64,000 nt of DNA from Lytechinus variegatus (lineage: Eukaryota > Echinodermata > Echinoidea > Temnopleuroida > Toxopneustidae). The translations under genes were made by a program, and so were the position numbers. The notes beneath the pieces are model-generated. The model had not been told where the DNA came from, did not search any database, and was given only the letters and a program-made list of their open reading frames with translations. Location of the stretch: assembly GCF_018143015.1 (NCBI RefSeq), contig NC_054748.1, positions 21,113,906 to 21,177,905 of the forward strand, given 5' to 3'. The stretch's first letter is position 1, and every line of letters starts with the position of its first letter. Below are positions 22,090 to 60,307 of this stretch, in pieces.

Positions 22090-25000
22090 ATGCTTCGCTT
22101 GTCTTCTATTTGCAGGCGAGCTGGAGCTCAAGCTCCAGTAACTGCCTTTGCCAGTAGGGCCTTGATCGGTGAATCGACGCCAGAGTTCCGGGGAAGAGCG
22201 AGCCCATGCAACCGCCCCTTTCTTCAGAACACCTCGTCATTCCATACACACTTCGTTTTGAGCCGTCCTGTTCCAGATTTGCCAGACTTTAATACCAGTG
22301 TGAACATCCATGAACACAAGCTGAACAGACCTGTTAAGCCAACAAAAAACACAAATGCACAGACACAGAAGAAAAAAGAACGGGCGAAATTGGTGAGATA
22401 ATCCATTGTCAAATATCCATTGAAAATGAATTACATTGCCTAGCCTTTTAATTTAATTATTGGTTGGAACTTGGAGTAGGTTTTGGACACTCATTCAATG
22501 AACAAGGTTATAATATAATGGTTTTGAATGAAGTTAGGCCTACTCCGCAAATTCATTTTAATTTATGTTACATCTATATAGTACAACTCCAATTTCCCAA
22601 ATAAAAAGTTCTTCTACTTAAATATATTCTACAATGTATTATACATACATGATGTAAGCATTATTAATTATTATTATTATAGTATTATTAGGTGATCTGT
22701 CAATTGACAGATCACCTCTTATGTTTCTATGAATTTTCTTTTTTATTTATTTCTTTATTCTTTTTATTTATTTTTCTTTTTCCACCCTTTTCTTGTTCCA
22801 CCAAAATCAGCAAAACTATTCAATCAATTTTCATCAAAATATTATCAATTATGGACAGTTATCATACAATGTCACAATAGGCCAAAAATGTGCAAAAACA
22901 TGCTTTTACAAAATTCTATATAACTCTTCAGATAGTCCGTTGACCCCCAAATTTTCTTTTATATTCGGATAGAGTAGGACTTGTAGATGTGATTTCATGT
23001 CACATTTGACAATAAATTTTATCATAACGTCATCAAATTGGCGTCAAAACTAAAATTTTCAATTTTTGTTTTATTACGTTTCAATAATTTTGCAAATATG
23101 ACTATAACTCCGTAATCATTGGTCGCTTTTCGCCCGGTTTTCGACATATTGTAGTTGGATATTCTTCCATATTATGTTACATTTTTATCATCTTGAGCAG
23201 GAGATCATCATGAATATTAGCAATGTATAGAAGTATATTATTATGATAAAACTTTCACTTGAAAAATTCAATTTGAGGTTATATTTTATCGTTGCCTTGC
23301 AAGTGTATGGCAGTTACTATGGTCTGATGGTTAGTGCATCTGCCTTGCAATGCGAGGTCCCTGGATCGACATCCATCAGCATCTATTTTTTCATTTATTA
23401 AATTTTGTCTCATTTTGCATGTAACCCCTATAAGCCGGTTTGGGGTTCCATTTTGCGCATGATAAGAAGTTCATTCGTATAATTCAGTGACATGATTGTT
23501 TTATATTTAATGAGATATTAGCAACAACCTTGATGTCTTGGTTATTCTTTTGAATTGTATGTTTCATTACATCCATAAAAACAACAACGCGTGCACTAGC
23601 AACTGGTATTTGAAACTTGGCTACGTATTGTTATAAGCACACGCTAACGCATTCCAAGAAGAAATGCAACAAATGCCTCCGTCAGTGTTCATTGCTTTGC
23701 TATTCTATTCACCAGGTCTAAGCAATTTCTTCATCTTGCTATGCAAGACATGCTTGCATAATATCTCGCAATGAAATCTACATATCGTCATGTAAGAAAT
23801 TAAATGTCATAACTGCTCATGAGGTAACAAAATACTGGTCTATGCATACTGATTTAAATTTTTCAAAACTGGATTTTAGATTCTTGCTTTCGTCAACACT
23901 ATGCTCACTATTTTGTGTTATCGCTTGCTAAATTGGAATTGGCATTCTTTACAAAAACAAGATCTTTTCATACCACCTTTTATTTCAATGTCTTTCAAAA
24001 GTATTCAGCATGTCCTTTCATTAATAAAACTGGGCTTATTCTCATGAAGCTCATATTGATTTGCATTAACATGGTGATCATGAGAAAAAAAAATAGATCG
24101 TGATCGTGATCATGAGATTCACAGACAGATCACCTAATTCGTCCTCAAGAAGAATTAAAATTCTAGTTTTTATTAATATTAATTTTATTATTACTATTGG
24201 ATAGTATTATTAGTATTAATCTTTTCTTCACAGGAATATAAGGAAAGACCTAAACAAATCACTTTTCAGGTAAAAATCACAAACTGCAGGTTCCCAAACT
24301 ACATCTGCTAAAATTTCACAATATCCAAACCATAACAGTTTTAGGAAGTCGTATATTATTTTTAGTAACTTGATTAACTTGGGTGGGGGGGGGGGGGTAG
24401 TACCAGTATCTTAGAGAATATAGGCCTACCATGTCCATGATGTTATTGTTGGGTACTTAATAGTTTTTAATTAAACATATTTAATAGCCTATCTCAATCT
24501 TATTCAAAATGAAGAAGCTTTGTAAACAAGACCTATTGGCATGATAATGAAAAATAATGAAGGCAGCACATGTTTCGGATAACATCGTAAATCTCAACGT
24601 GAGGGGTATGAGTCCCACCCATGCCGAAACGTGCACTATAACGTTGTGTGTTAGCATGCCTCACCACTGTATTCAGTGCAGGTGTGAATGCAGTTGTTAA
24701 ACACTCCGTCCATCGGAAAGGATGCAAATGTTAGTCCAGTGTATAGGAGAGTCACAACCTATGCACGTTAAAACCAATACACTATTCGTCCAAGAGTAGG
24801 GTGTTCACCCGGTGTATTGCACCTGCCGGTCCCGGCACACTTCATGTCAAGTACCCGATGCGTTTATGCCAAGGAGGGCCCAGCATCATATACATCCAGA
24901 TCCAATACACAGTAAAAACCTCACCTGGGTTTAGTACAGCCTAGTGTGGATAAATCCCTCGCTGAAGAAAGTAATGCAAAGTTGAGTCCCCATGACCTGC

Positions 25001-28000
25001 TGGTTTACAGGCGAGAGTCAGAACCACTAGACCACAACACTTCCAAATTGATTGAATCAATAGACTGAACACTCAAGGTGGTTTGCAAATTCAGTGACGA
25101 GAAGCATTTGTGATTTGATGATCTATTATTCATACTCCTTGTTTTCATCACACCATCTAAAGAGTAAGAAAATTTTCATGATCATCAGTTTAGCAGTAGC
25201 CAGAATATAGTCAAAGTCTCAGAAGCAAGCAGTACTTCAAACAATTGTAAAATTTGGTCTATGCCATGTCTATCTTTCTAAATATTTGAACTAAATAGGA
25301 TGCTATGTCAGGAAAGATCATGCAACATCTTCATCAATTTTATTTTGTTGTTCCTGTAGGGCTCCCTTATCCCTGAGACTCTGAAGGAGATGGAGAACGA
25401 TGAAGAATTCAAGATCACTGCCCAGAAACTCAAGCAAATGGGACAGGCCAAGCTGACGAGGGAAGAGAGAAAGAAGAGGCAGAGGGCGCTAGACAACCTG
25501 GGCGTTCCAAACTTCAGAGATTTCCTCAAACAGTATCATCATGAAGAAACAGGAGGTAGATTTGTATACAGCAAAAGAACCCCCCCCTCCTTCGGAAAAT
25601 AGTTGGGTTACATTTGCTTATAGTTTATTCCTGTGCCGCATTTTAGTTAATGGCTAACTTGAGTATATCATGGAAAATGTTTTTATGCAACATGCCACAT
25701 AAATTTTTTATCATACATATATTCCCATACAGGTTACCCATAAACCAGGGTTCTTAATTAGTTTTGTTATCAGAAATCTGTACTATGCTAATGCCCATCG
25801 ACCGAACAAGTAGCATGGGATAAAGGGGGCCAACTAAAGGGCATCTGTTGAGAGTTGAGGGGGTGGGGCCCTAAATCATTTATACAAATTTATTTTCATT
25901 TAGAAAAAATGTCTTGGATATATGCCACTTTGAAAGGCCCGATGTGAGCTGCTTATCAAGAACATTTTTGCTCTATTTTTATGAAGAGGTGTTGTGGCTT
26001 AGTGGATAGGTTTACGGTCATTGAACCAAAAAGGTGCGGAGTTCAAATCCAACTGCAGCACTTGCATCCTTTGGCAAGGTGTTTATCTGCATTTGTCATT
26101 CTCTACCAGATATAGTAAATGGATACCCGGGCAGGAAACGCTTAGAAACATTAAGTATCAAGCACCGTACTGTATAAATGTAATCATGATTAAATATTAG
26201 TAGGAAGTAGTTCTCTGAATTCTCAAGTGTCTAATCAGGGTAGCTGTGTTAAAGCTACAGAAATAGTATGTTGCAATATAAATGGCTATATATTTTTATC
26301 TCAACAGAGAAGTGCTCATCCCTCCTGCGAAAGATCGACATTGAGATCCTGCAATTGAACATCGGTCTTTACTGTAACCAGGCCTGCAACCACTGCCACG
26401 TTGAATCTTCTCCTCGGCGGAAGGAGATGATGGATCGAGAGACGGCAGAGAAGTGCATTGACATCCTGGAAAAGAGTCCCAACGTTCATACACTTGATCT
26501 TACAGGTTGGTGGGTTGTATTAAAAGACTTTTAATCGAAACTTGATTTCATTTGATAATCCACCGGCAGTACGTGTAGCTGCTGTTGTTGTTTTTGTTTT
26601 TTAATACTTTATAGTGTGTTTTCTTTCTCTTATGGCATTGTATTTTGTTTTGATGATATCAATTGTACTGATCTTTGCTATTGTTAAAAGAAAAAAAATT
26701 GTCACAACTGTATTGCAATAAATAATATTATTAACCGTATCAGACATCTGAGCAGGGCAACTTTGAAACATTGTTGCCTGCTTAACACTGGGATCGAATG
26801 GCCGGTCAATAAAATTCCAATTGTTTATCCACGGGCCCAATTTATTGCCCGCTCAAGAAAGTCAATGAGAAAATGCGTGGAAATGTGGCGGGCAATAAAA
26901 GGCAGCTCTAACATCCGGGTATTCTACGCGTTTTGTACGCGTCCTTGAACCGCGCAGTGCTATACGTCATAATGGTAATGAAGTTGAGACAACGCTGGAT
27001 ACTGCGTCCCTAGGCCAGGGATACGTCACAATGGTAAAGTTCAGAAGCCCAGTCTGCTCAACATGAGAAACTAGATTCTCATTCTAAAAATTTAAAATAT
27101 CTAAATTTTAACGATTTGGCTCTAGATGTCTGATTTGGTTAATAATAGCAATATTGACTGGCCTGGGGGCGAAAGGACATATATCGCCCTCACTAAATTG
27201 ATATCACCCTCGTCTACGACTCGGGCGATATAAATCTAGTTTGGGCGATATATGTCGTATCGCCCCGAGGCCAGTCAATATTGCTTTAATAAATAAAGTG
27301 AATATAAATGGAAGGATGGATACATGGATGGACAGATGGTGCATTCGTATCCAACCCCTATGTGTGGCACCTTACTTTGCCTGTCCAAAGCTTTAGTAAA
27401 TCCTTACAAACATGACTATAGTATTGCAATTCATTACTAAACTATATGAATGTGTATACCCTAGAAAAAATTATGGTGTGGCTTGTGTAGATTTTGGTAC
27501 GGGCAGCGAAATTAAGCAGAAGAACGGTAACACAAATGTCATTAGTCTATTTATATTTATTGCTATGCAAGCTACAAGAATCATAAGAACCATTTATATT
27601 ACATTTTTCAAAAATACAAAAATACTTAAATAATATTATTTTACATATTTTCTTAGGTTTCATTATCCATAAAAATAGTAAAATTGAACAAACGAAAAAA
27701 ATCAACTCCAAAAAAGTTGTCTGGGAGAAAATGGTCACAAAATCTGAGCGAAGTGGACCTTCCTAATAGCAACACTGCTGTGTGTTGCTGCCCTCTACGT
27801 CCGTTGGTCTAAGATAAGACTGTCAGATAAATAGACCATCTGCTTTTAATGCCAAGTGCATACAAAACCACACTGTAGCCTTGGATTGAGTCAAACCTGC
27901 CTGTTAAAATCATATTCATCCTTTACCTTTCAGGTGGGGCTCCAGAGCTGTGTTCTCAGTTTCGTTACCTGGCGAGCGAGGGTCGGAGGCTGGGTCGTAA

Positions 28001-31000
28001 GGTCATCGACCGCTGCAACTTGACCGCCTTACTGGAGCCGGGTCAAGAGGACACCCCAGAGTTCATGGCCGAGCTCGGGGTCACAGTCATAGCATCACTT
28101 CCATGTTACAGGTGTATATTATTGTTAAATTGCCACTTGTTATACACCCTCTTGGTCTACCCCCCACTCAGTGTTATTTAGGGTACGTCTATGCTCGTTC
28201 CCTCCCTTTGAAAGCACCCCCCTATCAAAGGTCTGCCAAAATTTCAGAACCCCCCTTTCGAGGGATTTTTCGCTGTCTTTTTCTGCCTTGGAGACCCCTC
28301 TAAATCTGGAACACTGCTCACTGTACCTCCTATCTCAGGTGAGCTCTCATTCCAACAAAACGTCCGTACTAGGCCCGTTTTGAAAGTCCATTTTTGATGC
28401 ACGTGTACACGGCGTGTTTTTCGGTCGTGTACACGTTGTAAACAATGTGAGAGCGAGTTCTGTTTTCATGTCGACACGGACCCGCATCAATATGTCATAA
28501 AAAGGGGTCTATATAGCCTAAGTCACGGTTTTAAAGCTTACCTGAGAAGTTTGAAGTATCAATCCACAAAAATTGGTGCAAATTAAAAGTTTACTCGGCT
28601 TAGCAGCGCATTAAATTAATAAAGAATGCAAAAGAAAATCAGTGCAGGGCCCTAGCTATCGCCGACGCTCGGTGGATGCGCATTTTGTATACTGTACCGT
28701 ACATGCATGCACAGATCGCTGCAGAATAAGTGTAACTGAAGTTATCGATTAATTTTCATTATTATGTTGCCAATTTGAAGAGCGTTTGTTTGTAGGCTTG
28801 TGTGCGAGCGTATAACACGTAAGTTGTAGCGATGATCGCTATCGCAATTGATGATTCTCAAATTGACTCTGAGTGTGATTGAGCAACGCTTTCGAGCTTT
28901 TGAGACCGGAGCAGACCCATTTCGTGCCGATTTCGTGGTACAAAAACGTGAGTCTCCAGAAAGAATGGATTGAATTGGCAATTTTGGAAGTGAACTCACT
29001 CTGGATTAATTGAAATATGTTGACATATTAGTAATTAAAACGTGCAGTGTCTGAGAACTAAGATTTAATGTGAGGCTGTGAGCTTGTTTATGCAGATGCT
29101 ACCGTGTACACGGTGATGGAATTTAGTACACGTGCACTGACTTGACCGTGCGTGTACACGTGTACCCGAAACGGGCCTAGTCCGTCCTTTACTTTTCAAA
29201 AATCAAAATGAAATAATCCTGAATTCAGGATTATTCGGGCTCATTCGAATGAGCTTTGAAAACTAGCAGGAATTTCAGGAATTTGATCCCAGGATTTGAT
29301 CAATTTTTTTATGTTATTCAAATTATTTTATAATCCCCTTTTAAAATTTCTCAGGAGTCCAAAGAGAGAGATAAAAAACAGCCCCTTTTTAAAGAAATCT
29401 CCGGGTGAAAATACAAATACACCCCCTTTTTTACAATTTGCGGGCCGGACTTGTCCCGCGAAAAGTACCCCTTTACCGGACATTTTGGAACACGCATGCG
29501 GTCCTTCTCACCCGGAGTAGGGGGGGGCAGGCCCAAAACCACCAATAAGTCACCAGGGAAGGTTCTCTGTTAATAGCCAAAATAGTAGATTGGTTTTCAA
29601 AAGGCAAAAATTCAAAACCTTGCTTGTCTGAAGGAGCATTTCTTCATCTTTATACTGTAAAAATGTAGATTTGGAAAGTTGAATAGAAAACAAGATACAA
29701 AAGTTTCTTTGATGCAGATTTTTGCAGACAGCTTGGAAGTTTAATTGAAATTGCAGTGTGCACATCTCATGCTTGAGTGAACAGAAACTTCAAATGTTGT
29801 TTTTTCCTTTATTCTCTGAAGCTCTGCACTTTGTTTTATCTGCATTCAATCAAGCATTTGAGTAAGTTATTATTTTTCAAGTTTGGCAAATCATATATCA
29901 TTTTATTAAAGCTTGGGGTAACTGGTCATGCTTGTTCAAACTCAATCAAAATCTCAACATTTATTTTGGGAGACTTATAATTGGTTTTGTGGTGACTGGT
30001 CATATTTGATCTCCTTCCAGATGGTCAGGGCCCCATCTTACAAAGAGTTGCGATTGATCCAATCAATCGCAACTATGGAAAGCCAGCAAAGTCAACATAT
30101 AAAATGCATGTTTGTTCAAAAAAAATTCTATTGATTTCTTGACAGTTTGGTGTGATCTCCTATGTTTACAAAGGACATTTTGCAAATTTCCTGTAGAAAA
30201 GATTATGACACTGATGGATTTCCATACAGTTACGATTAATTGGATCAATCGTAACTCTTGGTACGACGGGGCCCCAGATCATCTACTAACCATTTCGTCC
30301 AATTCCCACTCAGGCTATATGCATTTCTTTGAGGTCTACTACCACTTATTCTATATATGTTTTATAGGTCCACACCCACTTTCTGTTTGGCATCATCTCA
30401 GATGTTCAGATCACATTTGATCTACAACCAAGATCGTCTACTAACCATTGTCTTATTCGCCTTTAGGCCATACACATGTCAAATAACCTACTTGGTCTAA
30501 CAAACCTTATGGGGTGTTGCAAGAAACTTGCGATCAATCGCATGTCTATTTTTAGTCCCTAAATCAATCATATGTCTTGCAGTTAATTGCGAATTAGTGA
30601 TTGATTGCTAATTTGCTCCTTGAAACAAGAAGTGTAATCTGATATGCTATAGCTATCGTTGATCTGTCAGTTGCAATTGATTGCAACTATTTTCTTACAA
30701 CACCCCCTAAGTCTATATTCTTTATAGGTCTACATCCACTTTCAATACTTTCCGTTTGGTCTCATACCAGATGATCTGCAAATAGTCTAATTTCTGAAAG
30801 TTTCTGTGAAGGTTTCTGAAGGTACTAACCACTGTCTAATTCGCAATTGGGCCATTCACATTTGAAAAAATCCATTCGGACTAACACCACTCTATGGTTT
30901 ATAGATGAATTGTTTACGTACCAAATTTTAATTTTACAAAGTGCGAAAAAGATAATACATGAATAAACCCATCTTCGTAACTACCTTGGAAACTAATATT

Positions 31001-34000
31001 ATGATATGTGGGGCAATGCTGGGCCTGTTGCAAAAAAGTTACCATTATGGGAACGCTGCCATCCAATAACTTGTATGGAATCCTTGATTCTGATTGGCTG
31101 TCAATCATCGTTTCCATGGTAATTACCGTTGGATGGCAAAGTTACTATAATGGTCTAATGTTAGTGACTCTTGTCTAGAATCAGAGGGATGAGGGTTTGA
31201 TTCCAGGCCATGGCGTACTGTCCTTCAGCAAGAAATTCACCCACATTGTGCTGCACTCAACCCAGGTGAGGTTACTAGGTACCTGGTAGGAATTTATTCC
31301 TTGAAATGCTGCGCGCGTCAGAGCTGCTCTGCTAAAGCCAGGGTAATTATGCTGCGTTACTGTAGAGCGCTTAGAGACTTCTGATAAAGTAAGTGTTAAG
31401 CGCTATATAAGCAAGTATAATTATTATGATTGACTGCTGAGCCCCATTATGACTTTATAGAACGGGGGCGTTTCATGAAATGACTCGTCAGACGTTTTAT
31501 CCGACAAGTCCCATTTTATCCGACTGCAGTTACTATAGGAACAGTGCCTCTCGGCCAATCAAAATCATGGAAAGATGTCAGGGGAGCGTTTCATCAATAT
31601 TTTCATCCGACAAGTTGTCCGGGCAAGTTGTCAGATCTGACATCTTTCCATGATATTGATTGGCTGTTCCTATGTAACTGTTGGATAAAATAAGACTTGT
31701 CGGATAAAACGTCAGACAAGTCCTTTCATGAAACCCCCCCCCCCAGGTCTCAGGGTCCTGTATCACAAAGGTTAGCGATTAATTGTATGCTTCATTTTCA
31801 CTATTGATTATATACAGTGCATCCCAGAATAAACGAAACCGAGATTTAGCGACCATTTATCATAACTTAATCATAAATAGAATAGATAAATGACCTACCA
31901 ATTTAAAGCTTAGAATCTCTTCTTTCATCTGATATTACTTAGCTTATTTCTTATTCACGCATGAGTGAGCAAAAACAATTTGAAGAAAGGATACCAAAAA
32001 CTCATTTGGCGAGGGGTATCTGGGTTTCAAAAAGAAAACCACATTTCTGAAAAGTTCAATGTCTGCTCTTTAATTTGGTACCTCAATTACAGAAAATGGT
32101 CAAGAAATAAAAAAGTTCTGGTCATTTGAAATTTATGATTAAGTAATGATAAATGATCGCTAAATCTCGGTTTTGTTTTTTCTGGGACGCACTGTATTGT
32201 ACAATGCAATCAATCGTAGAAAAAAGCTTTGTGTTACGGGCCCCTGATGCTTTTTTTTTTTTTTTTTCAAGAATACTTATTTCTAATTGATATTTTTTGC
32301 AGTGCCAAGAATGTCAACCTACAGAGGGGTAGTCAAGTCTTCCAACGCAGCGTTGCAGCATTACAAACTCTGAATGAGCTTGGCTATGGGCAACCCGGGA
32401 GCGGTCTGGAATTACATCTGGTTTATAACCCTCTAGGTAACGATAGACTTAAAGGAAAATGAAAAATTTGGAATAAGTAGGCTTGTGTCGAAACAGAAAA
32501 AAATCAAAGAAACAGATCAACGAAAGTTTGAGAAAAATCGGACAAACAATGAGAAAGTTATGAGCATTTGAATATTTCAATCACTAATGCTATGGAGATC
32601 CTCCCATTGGCAATGCGACCAGGATGTGTGATGTCGCATGTGAACAACTTTCCCTTTGATGGACTATAAAATACCCCCAAAATGTCTCTTTTTGCTTATT
32701 TCTGATGGTGATACAAACTCTTATCCATGATGTATTCTTTCAATAACTGTATTACATGCCCTTCTATAGAAAGAACACATGATCTACTGATAGATGTGAT
32801 AATAGAGGCAATTTAAGTGAAATATATACTAGAGTAATGGGGAAATTTGTCCACATGGGACCTCACATATCTTTGTTGCATTGCCAATTTGAGGATCTCC
32901 ATAGCATTAGTGATCACAATATTCAAATGCTCATAACCTTCTCATTCTTTGTCTGATTAAACTCAAACTTTTGTTGATCTGTTTCTTTGATTTTTCTGTT
33001 TTCACACAAGCTATCTTGTTCTAAACGTTTCATTCTCCTTAATGTGGCGCAGGATTGATCCTGTACGTGGTGGGCAAAAGAAAGGATCACCAGTAAACAT
33101 TGCACCATTGTTGAACACCTGGGCACAGGTGTATTTAAACTGAGTTAAAAAGAAACCGATCAAACTTTACAATGGCACTACACAAATTCCACACAGTCAA
33201 AATGAATAATGTTTTTACACAGGCTAGCCTCAATAATCTTTTCTAAGCACATGTCAATAATTGAGATCACAGAGAGGCTATAGCCCCTCACATCAAATGC
33301 TTTCAGAATCAAAAGTCACAAAAGGGCAAAAGAAAGACAAATGAAAATGAGCTGGGATCAAACAAAATTTCCAGTTTACTTCATATGTCCTTCATGATAA
33401 TGTTTTAGTGATTGGCTCAGTCACAAAGAAGCTACAGGAAATTAACATCAGAATTTTGAATGACAGTTTCTTTGGAACCTTTTCTTTCTATTATGAATAT
33501 TACTGAGCTCAATTCGCTCAAAATGGCATTCGCGAGAGATTTCAATTCTGACAGAATTGAAGAGAGTTTGAAATATGCTGCCCAAAAGCTCAGAATAGAT
33601 GACTTTAAGGACCTGCAGGCTTCAGCGATATGTTTAGTACTTAATGGAGAGGATTGTTTTGTAAGTTTACCGACTGGATTCTGAAAAATTGCAATAATTA
33701 TGCCAGGCTCTGCCATTGTCGTTTGACTTTCTACGTTCGAGACTGAGAGCAGTGAGACAGAAGCCGCCAGTGCCAGCCGCAGGGAAGTGTGTCACGCATA
33801 TGATAACCATATATGCATATTGATGACCTTACCAGTGATGATAGTGTTGTGTAGTATGTATTTAACTTCCTGTTATCCTTTCAGTCATTCACCCTCACTT
33901 GTTTACAAACTCTCCCAATGTTATCTAAGAATCCCAAACCCCCAATACCATTTAACTGCTAAGCCTTGACCATTTAAGACCAACCCTCAGTGACGTCAGC

Positions 34001-36262
34001 TAACTTCATGGAAGAAGTATGACTCACACTCCAGCCCGGGCTCCAGCCCTAGTCACTTGCACAGAGCATCACCACACCCCAGATACCAGAGAGTTTGATA
34101 GACAGTTAATTGTAGACCAATCAGATCAAGTTTAGATCACTCCCACCTTAAATTGTTACACCCCAAAACAAATGATATAAATAAGACTTCTTGATTATTA
34201 GAAGAGAATACCAACCCTAGAATACTAGACCCACACTCATCCAGATAGACTAACTGACTTCAAGACTTAGACGTCCATCCAATATTATTTTAACTTCACT
34301 CCGAATCTCAATCTGATACTTCAAATTGTGAATTGTCAACTGCAAGTGATGATTAAATACTTTGTGATTTGAACTGTATAACTTTCTGCAAAGTTTCCTC
34401 ATTACGCTTCCCTTCAATAATCACCGATCCGATCCCAACACAACACGACAATAGGCGCTCGGGCTGTGCCCTCGTCCATCAGTCTGCTTCGCACGACCAG
34501 TAACTTGCCCACTATTGCCCTGCGCATATCAGATAGGCTAGGTTGTGTGTGGATTGCATGCTGGTGTATAATCATAATTTAGTCTACCCACAGTGATATC
34601 AAGAATCTTTCAATCTTGTTCTTAAATTCAGAACCTTTTCTTTTTATTTCATACAGGTGGTTTCCTCCCACCGCCTCAGGGTCCGTTGGAGCAGAAGTAC
34701 AAAGAGGAGTTGGATGAAGCCTTCGGTATCAAGTTCAATAACCTCTTCACAATCACCAATGTCCCGGTCAAAAGGTTTACAGATTTCCTGGTTAGAAGGT
34801 AATCTTCTTTCTCATTCTTTTTCTTCTTTGCTTTTATTCATCTATCTTTTTATCTCTTTATTGATTGAATAATCGACTTGATTGTTTCATTCATTCGTTC
34901 TTTCGTTCCTTTATTTGTCGTTCATTCATTCATTTATCCATTCATTTATTCATTTAATTATGTAGTTAATAAATTACTTTGTTTCTTTATTAGTTAGTAC
35001 TTCTGAGTCGCAAGACCGCTAGAGAAAGCCTTCTCCCATAGACTTTATACATGTGACTTGGGTGGAGGCTGAGGCCAAGGCCTCGGGGTCTGCCTCGAGT
35101 GCATCCCTATTAGAGATATTGCTCATATATTTGAAGTGCTTTATAAAAGTATATTTTCAATACTATTTTTTGTGATTTTGATGATCATGATCATAGGTGT
35201 GTTCTTTTGTCTTCAGGAACGAGTTGGAAGACTACATGAACATGCTGGTCCGTAACTTCAACCCGGCGGCCGTTGAAGGTCTGATGTGCAGGAACTACAT
35301 CAACGTTGGTTGGGATGGACGTATCTTTGACTGTGATCTCAACCAGCAGTTGGACCTGTCAAGCAGAAGACCTCTAAATATCCAATCAGGTAAAATCAAC
35401 AACAACAACAGATCTCAGGAAAATTAATGTTTGACTGAGGTTCTACCAGGTGTTGCGTACACTGCTGTCGACCAGTCTTGCAGAAGTAGTGCAACTTGGG
35501 AGGGACATCACAATAGGGGTCACCTTGCAAGCAAGGATTGTGAAATAAATAAATGCAGTCTTTATAAGATGGGGACAACATTAAACTTGATATCATGCAA
35601 CCTAGATTAGGTTATCTTATTTTATATTGAATCTATGCAAGATGTTCCTTTTCTTTGAGATAAGTTATGTTATTCTGCTTGCTTTTGGTAAAATAATGTT
35701 ATACTGTATAATGATAATTAAATATTTGAAGATCTTCTTTAATTCTTTGTTATACATTTGCTTAATGAATATGATTTGTATATTCTGTTTACCATTTGGG
35801 TAATATAATAGTGTTCTAAATATTTGACTGTCTTGTAATTACTTTCTTGTTATGCACATGTAGTTGCTATATGAATATTACTACAACTACTAATTATAAG
35901 GATGATATAAGCAATAATGATAATGATGATGATGACAATATGGCTTGTATTTGAACCTGCAGCATTCTGATTCAAACTCCCAAGACTAATCCACTGCACC
36001 ACAATGCTTCCCATATGATATTTATGTAAATTTCAAGACTATACAACTTAATATACACTTGATAAGTATCTTCTCTATAATTGTTATTATCTTCCACATC
36101 ATAGATACTTCCGGACATGCCATTCCAAGTGGACTGAAAGGACCCAGCATTTGGGATATTACATCAGCTACTGACTTTGCCGACCTCGGAATCGTCACTG
36201 ACAACCACTGTTTCGGCTGCACGGCTGGTAGCGGTTCATCTTGCCAGGGGGCCACGGTTTAA
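22090..36262 (+). CDS. ArsS-like radical SAM protein (arsenosugar biosynthesis type), complete eight-exon gene
   Basis: Exons: 22090-22392, 25360-25555, 26308-26505, 27934-28111, 32303-32436, 34657-34798, 35217-35389, 36105-36262. All introns are GT-AG, all phases close, and the product is 493 residues. Residues 1-26 are rich in Arg/Ala/Ser with no acidic residue, a possible mitochondrial presequence. The radical-SAM CX3CX2C cluster motif is C189-C193-C196 in LNIGLYCNQACNHCH. TGGAPE (232-237), RCNL, SLPCY (287-291) and LVYNPLGGFLPPPQ follow. The C-terminal domain (DUF3641 type) has LMCR (C408), DCDLNQ (C423) and HCFGCTAGSGSSC (C477, C480, C488), candidate auxiliary-cluster ligands. Bacterial ArsS, about 330 residues, acts after the methyltransferase ArsM and is proposed to transfer the 5'-deoxyadenosyl group to dimethylarsenite. 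Here about 170 residues precede the catalytic core. No ArsM gene is nearby. The substrate in this animal is inference. Confidence 0.9.
22688..24137. mobile_element. 1.45-kb element with TTAGGTGATCTGTC inverted ends, ArsS-like intron 1
   Basis: TTAGGTGATCTGTC at 22688-22701 is the exact complement of GACAGATCACCTAA at 24124-24137. The left end forms a 26-bp perfect hairpin ('ggtgatctgtcaa' with 'ttgacagatcacc', 22691-22716). A second hairpin, 'atgatcatgag' type, lies just inside the right end (24071-24116). There is no transposase frame. A tRNA-like segment lies inside at 23312-23385. Confidence 0.75.
23312..23385 (+). other. tRNA-like segment inside the transposon
   Basis: 'gcagttactatggtctgatgg', read in parts, gives the A box-like 'tggtctgatggttagtgcatc' region, then 'ttgcaatgcgaggtccctgg' and the B box-like 'ggtccctggatcgacatcc'. 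The B box has lost the canonical GGTTCGA, so it is not an active tRNA. It is either a SINE fossil captured by the element or part of the family. Confidence 0.5.
24138..24904 (+). other. ArsS-like intron 1, remainder
   Basis: AT-rich intron with a G run at 24383-24397. 24590-24850 includes 'ccacccatgccgaaacgtgc' and 'ttcacccggtgtattgcacc', which look like body sequence of a tRNA-derived SINE, but no complete head is visible. Confidence 0.35.
24905..25045 (-). mobile_element. SINE head and body fragment, minus strand
   Basis: Minus-strand reading: 'gtggtctagtggttctgac' (A box), 'tggggactcaactttgca', 'ttcttcagcgagggattt', 'ctgtactaaacccaggtga'. This is the family B arrangement with a degraded B box. 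It lies in ArsS-like intron 1. Confidence 0.6.
25985..26200 (+). mobile_element. tRNA-derived SINE, diverged
   Basis: A box-like 'gtggcttagtggataggttt', B box-like 'gtgcggagttcaaatcca', then 'cctttggcaaggtgttta', 'aaatggatacccgggcagg' and 'cgcttagaaacattaagtat'. This is a shortened relative of family A, ending in an AT-rich tail. It lies in ArsS-like intron 2. Confidence 0.65.
27147..27284. repeat. 138-bp hairpin element
   Basis: 'gcaatattgactggcctggg' at the left is the near-perfect complement of 'cgaggccagtcaatattgc' at the right. 'ggacatatatcgcccgctc'-like left-arm and 'gggcgatatatgtcgtatcg' right-arm sequences continue the stem, and 'gggcgata' is repeated inside. It looks like a small MITE in ArsS-like intron 3. 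Confidence 0.65.
28370..29179. mobile_element. 810-bp hAT-like non-autonomous element, ArsS-like intron 4
   Basis: The ends TAGGCCCGTTTTG / CGAAACGGGCCTA are inverted. They are flanked by GTCCGTAC (28362-28369) and GTCCGTCC (29180-29187), an 8-bp duplication with one mismatch, the hAT length. Near both ends the element repeats 'cgtgtacacg' type words (28398-28432 and 29100-29165). No transposase domain was found. Confidence 0.75.
30027..30276. mobile_element. MITE of the 'CTTACAAAGAGTTGCGATTG' family
   Basis: Ends 'agggccccatcttacaaag' and 'ttggtacgacggggcccc' with inner arms 'gttgcgattgatccaatc' and 'ttaattggatcaatcgtaac' form an inverted repeat. The interior shares 'ttacaaaggacattttgcaa' with the copy at 9748-10021. 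It is intact, about 250 bp, in ArsS-like intron 4. Confidence 0.8.
30282..30900. repeat. 'Taaccatttcgtccaa' foldback-family fragment, interrupted by a MITE
   Basis: Repeated phrases such as 'tctactaaccatttcgtcc', 'tctactaaccattgtctta', 'acttggtctaacaaacc' and 'actaaccactgtctaattcg' use the vocabulary of the 58108-58468 palindrome. The run stops at 30510, resumes at 30709, and the sequence between is an intact unrelated MITE. Confidence 0.55.
30511..30708. mobile_element. 'GCAAGAAACTTGCGATCAAT' MITE, intact reference copy
   Basis: It starts 'ggggtgttgcaagaaacttg' and ends 'gcaactattttcttacaaca', 'cccccta', with inner inverted arms 'gcgatcaatcgc' / 'ttgcaattgattgcaac'. It has no gene. It is the template that reveals the split copy at 15901-18255; a reversed copy lies at 41727-41941. 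Confidence 0.8.
31021..31155. mobile_element. MITE of the 'GTTACCATTATGG' family
   Basis: 'aagttaccattatgggaac', 'gctgccatccaataac', 'ccttgattctgattggctg' at the left, and 'catggtaattaccgttgga', 'tggcaaagttactataatgg' at the right, match the host MITE at 5308-5821 in the same order, with inverted ends. Confidence 0.7.
31146..31430 (+). mobile_element. tRNA-derived SINE (family B)
   Basis: The head is 'ataatggtctaatgttagtg' (A box, damaged) and 'gatgagggtttgattccagg' (B box). The body 'ttcagcaagaaattcaccc', 'gctgcactcaacccaggtga' and tail 'agcgcttagagacttctg', 'taagcgctatataagc' follow. It abuts the preceding MITE. Confidence 0.75.
31458..31745. mobile_element. Two abutting copies of the 'GCGTTTCATCAATAT' MITE, head to head
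   Basis: 31458-31579 is a reversed, truncated copy ('gggggcgtttcatgaaatg' to 'atcatggaaagatgtca'). 31580-31745 is a forward copy ('ggggagcgtttcatcaatat' to 'cctttcatgaaacccccccc'). The forward copy has a small internal duplication of 'caagttgtc'. Both match 7699-7859. Confidence 0.7.
31743..32250. mobile_element. 'GGGTCCTGTATCACAAAGGTTAGCG' MITE split by a TA-targeted element
   Basis: The left half ends at 31814 after 'cacaaaggttagcgattaat'. The right half (32195-32250) is 'acaatgcaatcaatcgtag', 'aaaagctttgtgttacggg', 'cccctg'. Together they match the intact family copy at 42882-43009. Confidence 0.75.
31815..32194. mobile_element. 380-bp Tc1/mariner-like MITE with TA duplication
   Basis: The left end 'cagtgcatcccagaataaac' and the right end 'tttctgggacgcactg' are inverted, and the arms continue as 'ccgagatttagcgaccattt' / 'aatgatcgctaaatctcgg' and 'atcataacttaatcataaat' / 'atttatgattaagtaatgat'. 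TA flanks both sides (31813-31814 and 32195-32196). This is a long-arm foldback without a transposase. Confidence 0.85.
32452..33047. mobile_element. MITE with 'AAAGGAAAATGAAAAATTTGG' type ends, ArsS-like intron 5
   Basis: It starts directly after the donor of exon 5 ('cttaaaggaaaatgaa') and ends '...cattctccttaatg'. Inner arms 'aaaatcaaagaaacagatca', 'acgaaagtttgagaaaaatc' and 'gagcatttgaatattt' are matched by 'aaatgctcataacctt', 'actcaaacttttgttgatct', 'gtttctttgatttttctg'. It is similar in design to the elements at 765 and 40227. Confidence 0.65.
33460..33684 (+). pseudogene. RecQ-like helicase fragment, cut off at the Walker A motif
   Basis: About 74 residues resemble the N-terminal part of invertebrate RecQ-like ATP-dependent helicases. 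The segment around DDFKDLQASAICLVLNGEDC leads into FVSLPTGF, where a functional protein would continue GKS (Walker A). Instead a TGA follows directly and the next codons do not continue the family. No downstream helicase motifs are found in the neighbouring 1 kb. It is therefore a broken copy in ArsS-like intron 5, on the same strand. Assignment rests on this short motif set. Confidence 0.5.
33790..34450 (+). mobile_element. Possible solo LTR
   Basis: A stretch that begins TGTCACGC, ends CACGACA and carries a TATA-like 'gatataaataagac' (about 34173) and a compact C-rich left part fits an LTR of a Ty3-type retrotransposon. 'cgcagggaag' immediately before resembles a short polypurine tract. I see no target duplication, no second LTR and no gag-pol sequence, so this stays tentative. 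Confidence 0.35.
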
Positions 36263-37454
36263 TTCAAGTGACATCAGAATTTGAACAGCCAAGGTCAAAG
36301 GTAAAAGGTGGTGGCATATCTAGAGGGGGGGGGGCAAAATTCAGGGAATTGCTCATTGAATAACCAAAATTGGACAGAATTATTCTCACAAGAACCAAAG
36401 GTTATTTCTTCTGTGCAGTATATTAGTATACTTGATCGTTCCACAACAATATTCTGCCATTTTTGTGGGGTTCTATGTTTTTACACCAACTTTGCTTGAC
36501 CTACATTATTCATGGCTTACCATATTTATATGAATTCACTCAAATGTGTACAATTTTGCATACATATATTGAAACCTTAATTATAGTATCCAAACATGAG
36601 GAAATTATCATTTAAGTGATTGGGTAACTCTGTGGAGGTTTGCGAAAATTTGAGATGCGGGGCCCTCCATGTTGTTCGTGTATGCAATGATGTTCCAAGA
36701 AAAACCCTGAACTCTTGATTTCACAAGCATCATTATACGCGTTGCAATAAGTACATGTAAAATATTGCTGATTTCTTGTCCATAGCATATGGTGTTTAAT
36801 TTGATAAGTGTCCGTATAAGTGCATATGAATGTAGTTATCATTATCGCAGGTTTCGCAGCAATTAAGTGTCCAATAAGATTAAAATCCTAGGTGATTCCC
36901 GTCTGACCTAAAGGTTTGCAATTATGATTATGTACAGCATTAGCTGCATGAGAAAAAAATCTTATATCATATATTATGTATATTGTATATTGTTAAGTTT
37001 CATATGAGAATTTGTTATGTTATTATGTTATGTGTTCCTGGAAATTAAATAAACATAAACATAAACATATCCTGAATGAAATGGAATGATCCCTTTCATA
37101 ATTTCACTCACAACATCAAGGAAATTTTATCATTCAGCAAAAAGAGCCGTTTCTTACATTATTACATAGAATGTAGCATCAGTCTTACGTCTGTCCATGT
37201 ATATGGTAATGATGATGCTACAGTGTTTTTATTGTACTTATCTCTTACTGAGCATCTCTGTTTTGAAGAAAAATGAAGAAAACAGAATAATGAAAATGAA
37301 GCTGTAGGCTATTATGGCAACTGTCTCAATCAAAATTCAGTTCTAATGAAGTATGTTTTAAACTTGTAGGAGACATATGATGTGAAAACCCCATCAATGC
37401 ACTTGATGCACATGAAACCTTTTTTATCAGATAGAAAATTGTGAGAATTTTATT
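36263..37454 (+). other. 3' flank of the ArsS-like gene
   Basis: This should contain the 3'UTR. A possible polyadenylation region is 'aattaaataaacataaac' at about 37044-37062. A G run lies at 36326-36335. No other gene is recognisable. Confidence 0.4.
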
Positions 37455-38075
37455 TCGGTTCTTTAGAGAACCAACTATTGTACGATTTGTATTACATTAT
37501 ATGAGATGAACTTCTGTAAATAGTATACTTTAGTTGTTAAAGCAGATACGAACCAATAGCGCCATCTTGAGTTCTCAACTACCTGGCCAGTTTCCTGACC
37601 CATAGTGCTAATGTAGTCTAGTAATATAGACCCATTTGAATGATAGCATGCTAATCAACTACTTATTCCATTTATACCGCAAAAATTATGCTACCAAGTA
37701 GCAAAATAATTACTTTTCCTCTCATTTTAGTTTCTCTATACAGTTTTAGGTCAATTTATATACTTTAGTATAATAACTGAAAATGTATATTTTAAGACTA
37801 TGTATTTTTAACACGCAGTCAATGAGAGACCACACCAGTAAACTCCCTCTCAAAGAGAATGATTACATGTAAATTACATGAATTAATTGTTTTTAGTTCT
37901 TAAGAGAACTATTATGTGAGATGAACTTCTGTAAATAGTTTCTTTAGTTCTTAAGAGAATGATTAGATGAGATGCAGTACTTAAAGAAATTTTGTTTTAG
38001 TTCTTAAGAGAACTTTTTTATTAGATGAAGAACTGTAAAGAGTTGAATTTTTGTTTCTCTCAGAGAGAACTGTGA
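37455..38075. repeat. Degenerate minisatellite with palindromic core GTTCTTAAGAGAAC
   Basis: Units of roughly 53-55 bp start 'gttctt(a/t)agagaac' and continue 'gatgaacttctgtaaatag'. Clear units start near 37457, 37892, 37943, 37998 and, decayed, 38053. Each unit core is a self-complementary 14-mer. Sequence between 37530 and 37890 is not obviously repetitive. Confidence 0.6.
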
Positions 38076-38085
38076 TATTAACCCG

Positions 38086-38207
38086 GGCCCTGTAACACAA
38101 AGTAAAGTGATTGATTGTAAAACTTATTTCATAATTGATTGCATTGAAAAATCATGTGCTATCAATTTTAGGTAATTAATCATAAAAGTTTGTGATACAG
38201 GGTCTGG
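38086..38207. mobile_element. MITE of the 'GGGCCCTGTAACACAAAG' family
   Basis: Ends 'cgggccctgtaacacaaag' and 'aagtttgtgatacagggtc' are inverted, with inner arms 'tgattgattgtaaaactt' and 'ggtaattaatcataaaag'. About 122 bp; relatives at 31743, 42882 and 62062. Confidence 0.75.
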
Positions 38208-38489
38208 TGGACTGATACAATCAGCTTTAATTTTATTAAATCATAATGTAGACAATTTTCAATTAAAATGAAATTTCTGTTTATTTTAACCCGTTGGAGA
38301 CTTGATTTTTTTGCTCTAACACGTTTTCCATAGACTCCAGAATGCATAAATGCGGACTCGGCTTTTAACGTTTTAATCTGAAGACATACACATGTACAGC
38401 TGAGACCAGAAGTTTACATATATACATGTACATGCACATCCAGGAAATTTAAAGAAAAGTTGACACTTGCCGAATGTAAAATTTACATG

Positions 38490-38835
38490 GAAGAGCCGTG
38501 GTGTAGTGGTTCTGACTCTCGCCTTGTAAACAGAGGGTCGTGTGTTCGAATCCCACCGCGGTCTAGCGTCCTTTGGCAAGGCGTTAATCCACACTTTGCC
38601 ACTCTCGACCCAGGTGCTAAATGGGTACCCGGTAGGATGCGAAAGATATTGTATGTTTGATTTTGCCAGCAGCAAAATGTGGCTGCGATGAATGCAAAGA
38701 ATGCTCTCCAGGGAGTGGAATTTGTGCACTTTTCGTGCTTGATTGAAATGAATCCGATGACCGGGGTAATAATATGCTGTAACGTGCTTTGGGCCATTCT
38801 GGGAAAAGCGCTTTATAAAAATTGGCTATTATTAT
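38490..38835 (+). mobile_element. tRNA-derived SINE (family A), complete and well preserved
   Basis: A box 'gtggtgtagtggttctgact' and B box 'ggtcgtgtgttcgaatccc' are close to consensus. The body 'tttggcaaggcgttaatcc', 'tttgccactctcgaccca', 'gggtacccggtaggatgc' and tail 'gctttgggccattctgggaa', (ATT)n follow. The minus-strand copy at 59508-59850 is nearly identical, so this subfamily may be young. Confidence 0.9.
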
Positions 38836-39796
38836 TATTACTGTATCTTTAAAATATTTGTGCTATCATGACAAATTTGATATCAAACAAATGAATATGT
38901 CATGCCCATTCATCACATTGCTTTGTCGTCAGGAGCTGAAAAATATTTACATGTAAATGTCATTTTTTCAAAAAATCTTCATATTTTAGACAAATCAAGA
39001 ATAAAAACTTGACAAAAATATTTCATATTTGTGCTTGTTAGTCTTCTCAACACAAACATTTCAGATTACACTTATTTATACACCCGTCCTAGACAAGATA
39101 ATATTATGCTACAACGCTGGGTGTCCGTATGACCATCTGTATGATATTAGCATGGATCCCAGGAAGCCTATAGATTTTGAGGTCAAAATATCAAAGGTCA
39201 AAGTCACACTGACATGTTTTCATCTACCCTTCTGAAGTCCTTGTAAACGCGATAACTTCAGATTAACTTAACCAAGACTCATAAAATTTGGTGTGTATGT
39301 TACTAGCATGAATCCCAGCAATTCTATTGATTTTGAGGTCAGAGGGTCAAAGGTGAAGTCGCCATCTTCCATTTTTCTTGCTTAACCAATAACTCCATTT
39401 TCTGTGTTACAGGCGGGCATATTATGTGCTCGCCATTGTGACAATCTTGTTGTTCAGTGGCGACATATCATGATGGAAAATGTAGGCCCTTATTTCTATG
39501 ACATGTTTGAAAATATAATAACAAACAATAGAATATATTTAGCATAAATATTACTTTTTTTTCTTAAAAGAAAATTTTACCCGAAATGTACTGTAATCCC
39601 AACGGCGTCCCTATCATGTGAAAGAGCTGAATTCACTTGATTTCACTTCATTTGATACCTAATTTGTCATGAAAGCATAGATATTTTATAAGATACAGTA
39701 AATTTATGATGTTTTGGCAAGTGTCCACTTATTTTTTATTTTCTTGGTGTATGTAAGCTTCTGGCCTCAACTATAGCACACACATTGCGCATACAT

Positions 39797-40206
39797 TCGT
39801 GATTCCGAAGCTTCATTATTCCGAAGGTTCAGTTATTCCAAAGGATTGTATTTCGGAAGGTTCGTTTATTCGAAAATGAAATAAGGTCCGTAATTCCGAA
39901 GGTTCATCAATCAGAAAACGAAATGAGGTTTGTAATTTCGGAAAATTCGTTAATTCGAAAACGAAATAAGGTTCATAATTCCGAAGGTTTGTTAGTCCGA
40001 AAACGTAATGATTAACAAACCTTTTTCCTTTTCGGACTAACGAACCTTCAGAACATCGAACCTTATTTTGTTTTCGGATTATCGAACCTTCGGAATTACG
40101 AATCTTCAGAATAACGCCACAAATGTTCGGATTAACGAACCCTTTTACGTTTTCGGATTAATGAACATCGCGGTATAGGCAATTTACGTGTTTCGGAATT
40201 ACGAAG
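39797..40206. repeat. Palindrome built of 'TTCGGAATTACGAAC' units
   Basis: The left arm repeats 'attccgaaggttc', 'ttaattcgaaaacgaaata' and 'aggttcataattccgaagg'. The right arm is the mirror: 'ttttcggactaacgaacctt', 'ttttcggattatcgaacc', 'ttcggaattacgaa'. The centre is near 40010-40025. At least eight TTCGNNANTNCGAA-like words occur in about 410 bp. Confidence 0.8.
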
Positions 40207-59507: not shown

Positions 59508-59850
59508 ATAATAGCCAATTTTTATAAAGCGCTTTTCCCAGAATGGCCCAAAGCGCGTTACAGCATATTATTACCCCGGTCATTGGATTCATTTCAATCA
59601 AGCACGAAAAGTGCACAATTTCCACTCCCTGGGGAGCATTCCTTGCATTCATCGCAGCCACATTATGGCGCTGGCAAAATCAAACATACAATATCTTTCG
59701 CATCCTACCGGGTACCCATTTAGCACCTGGGTCGAGAGTGGCAAAGTGTGGATTAACGCCTTGCCAAAGGACGCTAGACCGCGGTGGGATTCGAACACAC
59801 GACCCTCTGTTTACAAGGCGAGAGTCAGAACCACACAAGCCGCGTAGCCT
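59508..59850 (-). mobile_element. tRNA-derived SINE (family A), minus strand
   Basis: Nearly identical in reverse to the copy at 38490-38835: 'gcgcttttcccagaatggcc' tail, 'gcatcctaccgggtaccc', 'tggcaaagtgtggattaac', 'ggtgggattcgaacacacga' (B box), 'gcgagagtcagaaccaca' (A box). The longest open frame in this area (plus strand, 59543-60046) runs through it and is not a gene. Confidence 0.9.
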
Positions 59851-60307
59851 AGTAGTAGGAGCCACCGAATCGGGGGAAAGGTCGAAGGGGGTCAGTCAAG
59901 CACCCTTCTCAGGGGTGGATCCTGGATTTTGGGGGAAGGGGACGCATTTCGTCCCCCAAATTGTGCATTTTTTTAAAGGGGGATGGAGTTTTAACGGATG
60001 CGCGCACCTGAATGAGCACCTGTTCCCAATCACTTATTTCAGTTAACGTGCAAAAAAAGATAAATATATCCACCTTATTGTGATTCCCTTTTGCCCCCTG
60101 CTCAGCTCAGCTCGCTCAGCTCCCAGTTTTCAAAACCGTTCCGCGCGCCCCCTATAAATTACAGGATTTGTATCGAATGCTTTGCAATTTTCATTTTGTT
60201 TATTAAAACATTCATTTGGTATCCGTAATGTTGCCATAAAGGTAAAACCGAATACATCATGATTGTACTCAAGGGTTTAAAGAGCCAAATGCTTTGAGGG
60301 CGCGGAA

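Follow-up and report, generated by a model that had tools for sequence, protein, structure and literature searches.

We analysed a window of 64,000 nucleotides from the sea urchin Lytechinus variegatus (assembly GCF_018143015.1, contig NC_054748.1, positions 21,113,906 to 21,177,905), which carries a nuclear gene for an ArsS-like radical S-adenosylmethionine (SAM) enzyme, here called arsS. Rebuilt from the raw window sequence, the gene occupies positions 22090-36262 of the forward strand, and its eight exons encode 493 amino acids and one terminal stop codon. All seven introns are of the GT-AG type and the reading frame is kept throughout, the cumulative coding length modulo 3 being 0, 1, 1, 2, 1, 2, 1 and 0 after exons 1 to 8, so that the eight exons with matching phases proposed in an earlier sequence-only reading are reproduced. 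The rebuilt protein is that of Lytechinus variegatus LOC121421457 (P0001), with 100% identity over 100% of the length. The locus lies on the contig that we number C9, in an assembly of 870 Mb and 33 contigs. The domain DUF3641 has three matches in this genome, namely exons 6, 7 and 8 of arsS, and none elsewhere.

Exon 1 (22090..22392; this and all following exons on the + strand) holds the start codon and an N-terminal presequence-like part, residues 1-101, where a mitochondrial signal is possible. Exon 2 (25360..25555) encodes an N-terminal helical part that is kept in the aligned eukaryotic orthologs and lies outside the match to the family model TIGR04167. The radical SAM motif CNQACNHC (C189, C193, C196) is found in exon 3 (26308..26505), the radical SAM core with GGAPE and SLPCY in exon 4 (27934..28111), and the end of this core with LVYNPLG in exon 5 (32303..32436). 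DUF3641 starts in exon 6 (34657..34798). Exon 7 (35217..35389) encodes C408-X9-G418-X4-C423, a twitch-like pair that may serve as ligands of an auxiliary cluster, with a fold match to SPASM/twitch enzymes, and exon 8 (36105..36262) carries HCFGCTAGSGSSC (C477, C480, C488) and the stop codon. The codon of C488 is TGC (36242..36244, +) and marks the column where 86 of the 153 eukaryotic orthologous proteins discussed below end. All signature motifs named in the sequence-only reading are in the translation. The predicted structure has a pLDDT below 50 at residues 1-57 and from residue 490 on. We examined the N-termini of 28 animal ArsS proteins, and since most of them are rich in Arg and poor in acidic residues (that of Owenia is Lys-rich instead), they suggest a mitochondrial location.

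By its sequence the locus is confirmed as a true ArsS-family gene. The urchin protein scores 401.8 bits against the ArsS equivalog model TIGR04167 (cut-off 300, E=1.7e-120), 164.3 bits against DUF3641 (PF12345; cut-off 24.9, E=2e-48) and 31.6 bits against the radical SAM domain PF04055 (cut-off 29.5), whose CxxxCxxC is formed by C189/C193/C196. The first two E-values exclude a chance match. TIGR04167 also matches all 28 aligned eukaryotic orthologs at E <=1e-50, and in the urchin protein 173 residues precede this match. The C-terminal ArsS motif, HCxGCTAGxGSS followed by Cys or selenocysteine (Sec), is present as HCFGCTAGSGSSC, in the Cys form. The family membership claimed in the sequence-only reading thus stands at the level of the equivalog cut-off, and family and protein searches of the kind that it had proposed returned the ArsS equivalog and orthologs in many marine invertebrates. 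A sequence search for a solved ArsS structure returned none, the best E-value being 0.0023 for a YydG chain. One ArsS-like protein among the matches, P0125, has CNQASAHC in place of CNQACxHC and so has one radical SAM Cys fewer; it may be an inactive form or reflect a sequencing error.

Relatives of other pathway genes were sought by profile searches of the urchin genome contigs, and the same E-value threshold was run on 14 well-known control genomes. The ArsM model NF008823 gave 13 genome matches, singly by exon and none above the curated cut-off. Four of these come as exon pairs from two similar AS3MT-like copies on contig C11, at 8005993-8009143 (L096) and 11914606-11917754 (L095), 3.9 Mb apart. 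The aligned stretches of the two are 89-98% identical, and the pair may be true duplicates or a product of the assembly. From one copy, five exon pieces with 222 residues in all match PDB entry 8xt7, 'Arsenite methyltransferase', at 1.9e-76, while this partial model scores 176.7 bits against NF008823 and does not reach the curated cut-off of 263. These exons are candidates for the ArsM (AS3MT) partners for which the sequence-only reading had suggested looking. A 2017 paper makes the case for metazoan ArsM being monophyletic and present in the animal ancestor (PMC5552862).

The models TIGR04282 (three matches) and TIGR04283 (two matches), both named 'arsenosugar biosynthesis glycosyltransferase' by NCBIfam, match within 10 kb on contig C3, on one strand and in order, and nowhere else in the urchin genome. 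The matches belong to a fused glycosyltransferase gene at 24519783-24529755 (L100, L101) with 10 exons, GT-AG introns and 481 residues, in which Pfam recognizes DUF2064 and Glycos_transf_2. It passes the TIGR04282 cut-off (160.1 bits against 134). Its TIGR04283 match spans profile positions 1-195 of 221 and stops there because the last exon was not found; there are three weak candidates for this exon, none convincing. Two neighbouring matches to the MTAP model on C11 score 114.8 and 96 bits, less than the cut-off for the whole protein.

We compared this with the neighbourhoods of bacterial arsS genes, using the best 80 of at least 592 confirmed loci and flanks of at most 3 kb. In 24 of the 80 loci there are ArsM-like open reading frames (ORFs) on the same strand as arsS; of five such ORFs that were scanned, two exceed the cut-off of NF038099, the arsenosugar ArsM model, and the other three are below the ArsM cut-offs. 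ORFs resembling the urchin glycosyltransferase halves are present in 29 loci (41 matches, all on the arsS strand), and 47 loci have an ORF of one kind or the other near arsS. Both glycosyltransferase halves occur together in four ORFs, in four loci. One locus (L080) encodes TIGR04169, arsS, TIGR04282 and TIGR04283, with all three neighbours above the cut-offs. In another (L008), arsS is accompanied by an MTAP at 284.8 bits (cut-off 274.85) and by a fused glycosyltransferase, the halves of which score 123.1 and 116.8 bits, both below the cut-off. MTAP-like ORFs are found in 10 loci, three of them weak and three on the strand opposite to arsS, and TIGR04169-like ORFs in 14.

Considering these data together, we think it likely that arsS is a functional single-copy nuclear gene from an early eukaryote and works in the following proposed arsenosugar pathway. 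AS3MT/ArsM would methylate arsenite to dimethylarsenite. ArsS would then cleave SAM reductively at a [4Fe-4S] cluster on C189/C193/C196 and join the 5'-deoxyadenosyl group to arsenic, giving 5'-deoxy-5'-dimethylarsinyl-adenosine; such adenosylation by ArsS has been reported in bacteria (PMC12159101, PMC8552651). C408, C423, C477 and C480 are probably ligands of an auxiliary cluster. C488, where most animals probably have Sec, could act as a mobile thiol for binding or reducing the arsenical. Next, an MTAP-like phosphorylase, a kind of enzyme well matched to 5'-modified adenosines, might free adenine and leave arsenoribose-1-phosphate. Conversion of this phosphate to a nucleotide sugar could fall to the DUF2064/CofC-like domain, and transfer of the sugar to glycerol or a lipid, giving the arsenosugar, to the GT2 domain. 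The chemistry in the animal and the cell location are our inference, as are what the late steps are and how they follow one another; for the last three steps we go by the kinds of domain and the gene order. An algal route to arsenosugars is given in PMC4278203. Some marine animals may hence make arsenosugars themselves and not only obtain them through food, a conjecture strengthened by the relatives of the pathway genes in the same genome.

Several points weigh against such a pathway. The control genomes were also matched, by NF008823 and TIGR04283 in 14 of 14, by MTAP in 10 of 14 and by TIGR04282 in 3 of 14, so single-exon matches are weak alone and the weight is put on the assembled-gene scores. 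The C3 gene scores 165 bits against TIGR04283, where the incomplete model misses the cut-off of 182, and TIGR04282 is a hypothetical equivalog only. The glycosyltransferase gene was sought among animals in the urchin genome alone, and the bacterial neighbourhood counts come from arsS loci alone. The peroxidase-like TIGR04169, which is found beside some bacterial arsS genes, has no match in the urchin genome. The MTAP-like and AS3MT-like genes may serve ordinary roles.

One could suppose that the ArsS-family protein adenosylates or alkylates another acceptor in animals (such as a selenium, sulfur or protein substrate) and that the arsenosugars of urchins are dietary. We consider this unlikely but worth keeping in mind, since animals and algae share the N-terminal part outside the family model, the urchin genome has no match to TIGR04169, and arsS (C9), the AS3MT-like copies (C11) and the glycosyltransferase gene (C3) are on separate contigs; against it stand the equivalog-level score of TIGR04167 and the presence in the genome of relatives of ArsM and of both glycosyltransferases, the latter at one place only. 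It also seems rather improbable to us that ArsS is a detoxification enzyme whose route stops at the deoxyadenosyl-arsenical, with no full arsenosugars made and the glycosyltransferase gene serving otherwise. A product of that stage is known from clam kidney (PMC4278203) and the missed TIGR04283 cut-off would agree with such an ending, but the fused urchin glycosyltransferase resembles genes that lie beside arsS in more than a third of the bacterial loci.

The C-terminal end of the family suggests a further feature of the animal enzymes. Three protein searches, each giving the best 120 of about 8000 scored, yielded 156 distinct listed proteins, and 153 of them reach the motif HCxGCxxG (P0016, P0060 and P0131 fall short). 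Exactly one residue before the column of the urchin Cys, 86 of these eukaryotic proteins end; 66 have Cys and a short tail in this column, one has Trp and then QGTTA, and no protein ends at a neighbouring position. In the first 144 proteins alone, 80 end there, 61 have Cys and none has another residue. Named animals that reach the motif number 29, of which 21 end before the column (two hemichordates, three amphioxus, ten bivalves, Owenia, Lingula, Lineus, Sycon, Tigriopus and Oithona) and eight have Cys (seven echinoderms and Priapulus). Six early-ending rows bear MMETSP names (P0044, P0083, P0111, P0122, P0123 and P0147), five with 'type:complete' and the sixth visible as 'type:comple', and rows marked complete are transcript ORFs ending at a stop codon. 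An end at exactly one column in so many proteins is what an unread UGA would leave, and most animal ArsS proteins are probably selenoproteins whose annotation ends too early, with the echinoderms using Cys. The Trp case, P0154, comes from a metagenome, is diatom-like and has a CBS domain (PF00571) at its N-terminus; its Trp fits a UGA called as Trp by the gene caller, though it may also be a true TGG. A 2026 review lists the bacterial family as a selenoprotein with the motif GxxU (PMC13188914), and the NCBI family name also marks bacterial ArsS in this way. We think it very unlikely that a real stop codon closes the 86 proteins and that they simply go without the last residues; for those animals the evidence is protein sequence, and the codon could be UAA or UAG, but the ends share one exact column that is otherwise filled by Cys or, once, Trp, and the review's listing of the bacterial family argues the same way. 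As a side observation, the animal ArsS records P0011-P0015, P0018-P0029 and others are likely truncated at an unread UGA.

The urchin gene itself is not the Sec form, its C-terminal codon being TGC. No selenocysteine insertion sequence (SECIS) element was found among nine weak Rfam matches in 36200-40200 downstream of it, as expected for the Cys form. Bacterial C-termini are readable in 75 of the 80 loci and all have Cys; as these loci are the best-scoring ones, the set may be enriched in Cys forms. An 'FeS oxidoreductase' named in the algal selenoproteome paper PMC7539508 may, going by its name, belong to the ArsS family. In the passages seen of the metazoan selenoprotein survey PMC3473315, the terms 'arsen', 'Fe-S' and 'methyltransferase' are absent and the words with 'sam' are not ArsS. 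The titles and abstract openings listed in searches of the open-licence literature, a body with subscription journals mostly outside it, mention no animal ArsS or selenoprotein form.

The gene is not peculiar to Lytechinus variegatus but belongs to an old, little-noticed animal family. The named animals among the matches listed include urchins, starfish, crinoids, a sea cucumber, two hemichordates, three amphioxus and a priapulid, and further bivalves, an annelid, a brachiopod, a nemertean, two copepods and a calcareous sponge. Vertebrate, insect and cnidarian names do not appear among them, which at this depth of listing is no evidence of absence. Many algae also carry ArsS according to the protein searches. 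The sequence-only reading had regarded the enzyme as otherwise known mainly from bacteria and algae, which does not hold, as the databases contain the gene in many marine invertebrates. Most animal database records read 'uncharacterized protein', and the UniRef names of Pinctada and Potamilus begin 'Arsenosugar biosynthesis ra'. Viral relatives amount to three partial loci from 14 candidate stretches.

We built a tree of 94 rows with 53 named eukaryotes, 25 other eukaryotes and every fifth bacterium (16), the bacterial rows coming from the 76 of 80 loci with a usable ORF (L013, L014, L016 and L034 are out); P0125, which has no Cys pattern of the kind used for trimming, was omitted from the trees. 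The 16 bacteria are split from the 78 eukaryotes with a Shimodaira-Hasegawa-like approximate likelihood ratio test (SH-aLRT) support of 99, a single clade unites the animals, with 42 rows (29 named and 13 others, support 96), and another within it the echinoderms, with 10 rows (support 98). The bacteria are likewise on one side of a branch in a FastTree tree of 216 rows. The trees settle neither the animal root nor the source of the eukaryotic gene. In a tree with 51 animal rows, two changes in the C-terminal state (Cys or early end) are needed, which we read, from this tree and the accepted animal phylogeny, as losses of Sec in the echinoderms and in the priapulid lineage. A single clade of the 12 Cys animal rows is not rejected by the approximately unbiased (AU) test (p=0.148), and in the same tree the echinoderms as a whole are not a starred set, compared with their 98 in the 94-row tree. 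The plain reading of the family's distribution is that arsS would be an old eukaryotic gene retained by many marine invertebrates. An origin by contamination from bacteria or algae, or by recent transfer into the urchin, has next to no chance of being right: the family is common in bacteria, but the seven introns, the placement in a 33-contig assembly, the orthologs in other echinoderms and the animal and echinoderm clades rule it out, in agreement with the sequence-only reading.

It is quite possible, though we stop short of calling it probable, that arsenosugar synthesis is ancestral in animals. In that case ArsM, a Sec form of ArsS and the glycosyltransferases would have been present in the last ancestor that sponges and bilaterians share, and the echinoderms and priapulids would later have exchanged Sec for Cys. 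The arsenosugars of marine animals are usually credited to algal food or symbionts, and the deoxyadenosyl-arsenical of giant clam kidney to symbiotic algae. If synthesis were ancestral, this arsenical would be the clam's own product and ArsS an unrecognised animal selenoprotein family. Bivalves are well represented in the ArsS matches, and Tridacna is not among the names listed. With relatives of ArsM, ArsS and the glycosyltransferases present in one animal genome, animal synthesis can be tested directly, and the arsenic nucleoside of giant clams could have an animal origin. This bears on arsenic in seafood and on its cycle in the sea. Should the early ends indeed stand for Sec, animals would have a further selenoprotein family, in which a single enzyme links selenium with the chemistry of arsenic.

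The rest of the window adds a few observations. A short open frame in intron 5 (33460-33684, +) ends in GEDCFVSLPTGF and recalls RecQ-type helicases, and the open frames at 38373-38825 (-) and 59528-60046 (+) contain PRWDSNTRPSVYKARVRTTTPRL and RGGIRTHDPLFTRRESEP and are probably spurious, arising from dispersed repeats. None of the six open frames of the window that were scanned with Pfam, these three included, gave a match, and neither did exon 1.

Among known systems, the closest is the ArsS of Synechocystis (SsArsS) and the TIGR04167-PF12345 type in general, with which the urchin enzyme shares the Cys motif, DUF3641 and the C-terminal HCxGCTAGxGSS-Cys. Unlike that type, the urchin gene is nuclear, has eight exons and an animal host, and encodes a 173-residue extension with a possible mitochondrial presequence. 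It also has Cys where most named animal orthologs probably carry Sec. ArsL, the radical SAM enzyme of arsinothricin synthesis, forms a C-As bond as well (PMC8552651), but it transfers a 3-amino-3-carboxypropyl and not a deoxyadenosyl group, and no ArsL family is among the 15 families listed for the urchin protein. Viperin, a radical SAM enzyme of animals, belongs to another family (NF038283, 18.5 bits against a cut-off of 180). As for the TIGR04282/TIGR04283 systems, both domains are in one urchin gene, as they are in ORFs of four of the 80 bacterial loci, but the urchin order TIGR04282-TIGR04283 is reversed in the bacterial locus L008, and the urchin glycosyltransferase gene, unlike the bacterial neighbours, has introns and is unlinked to arsS (C3 versus C9).
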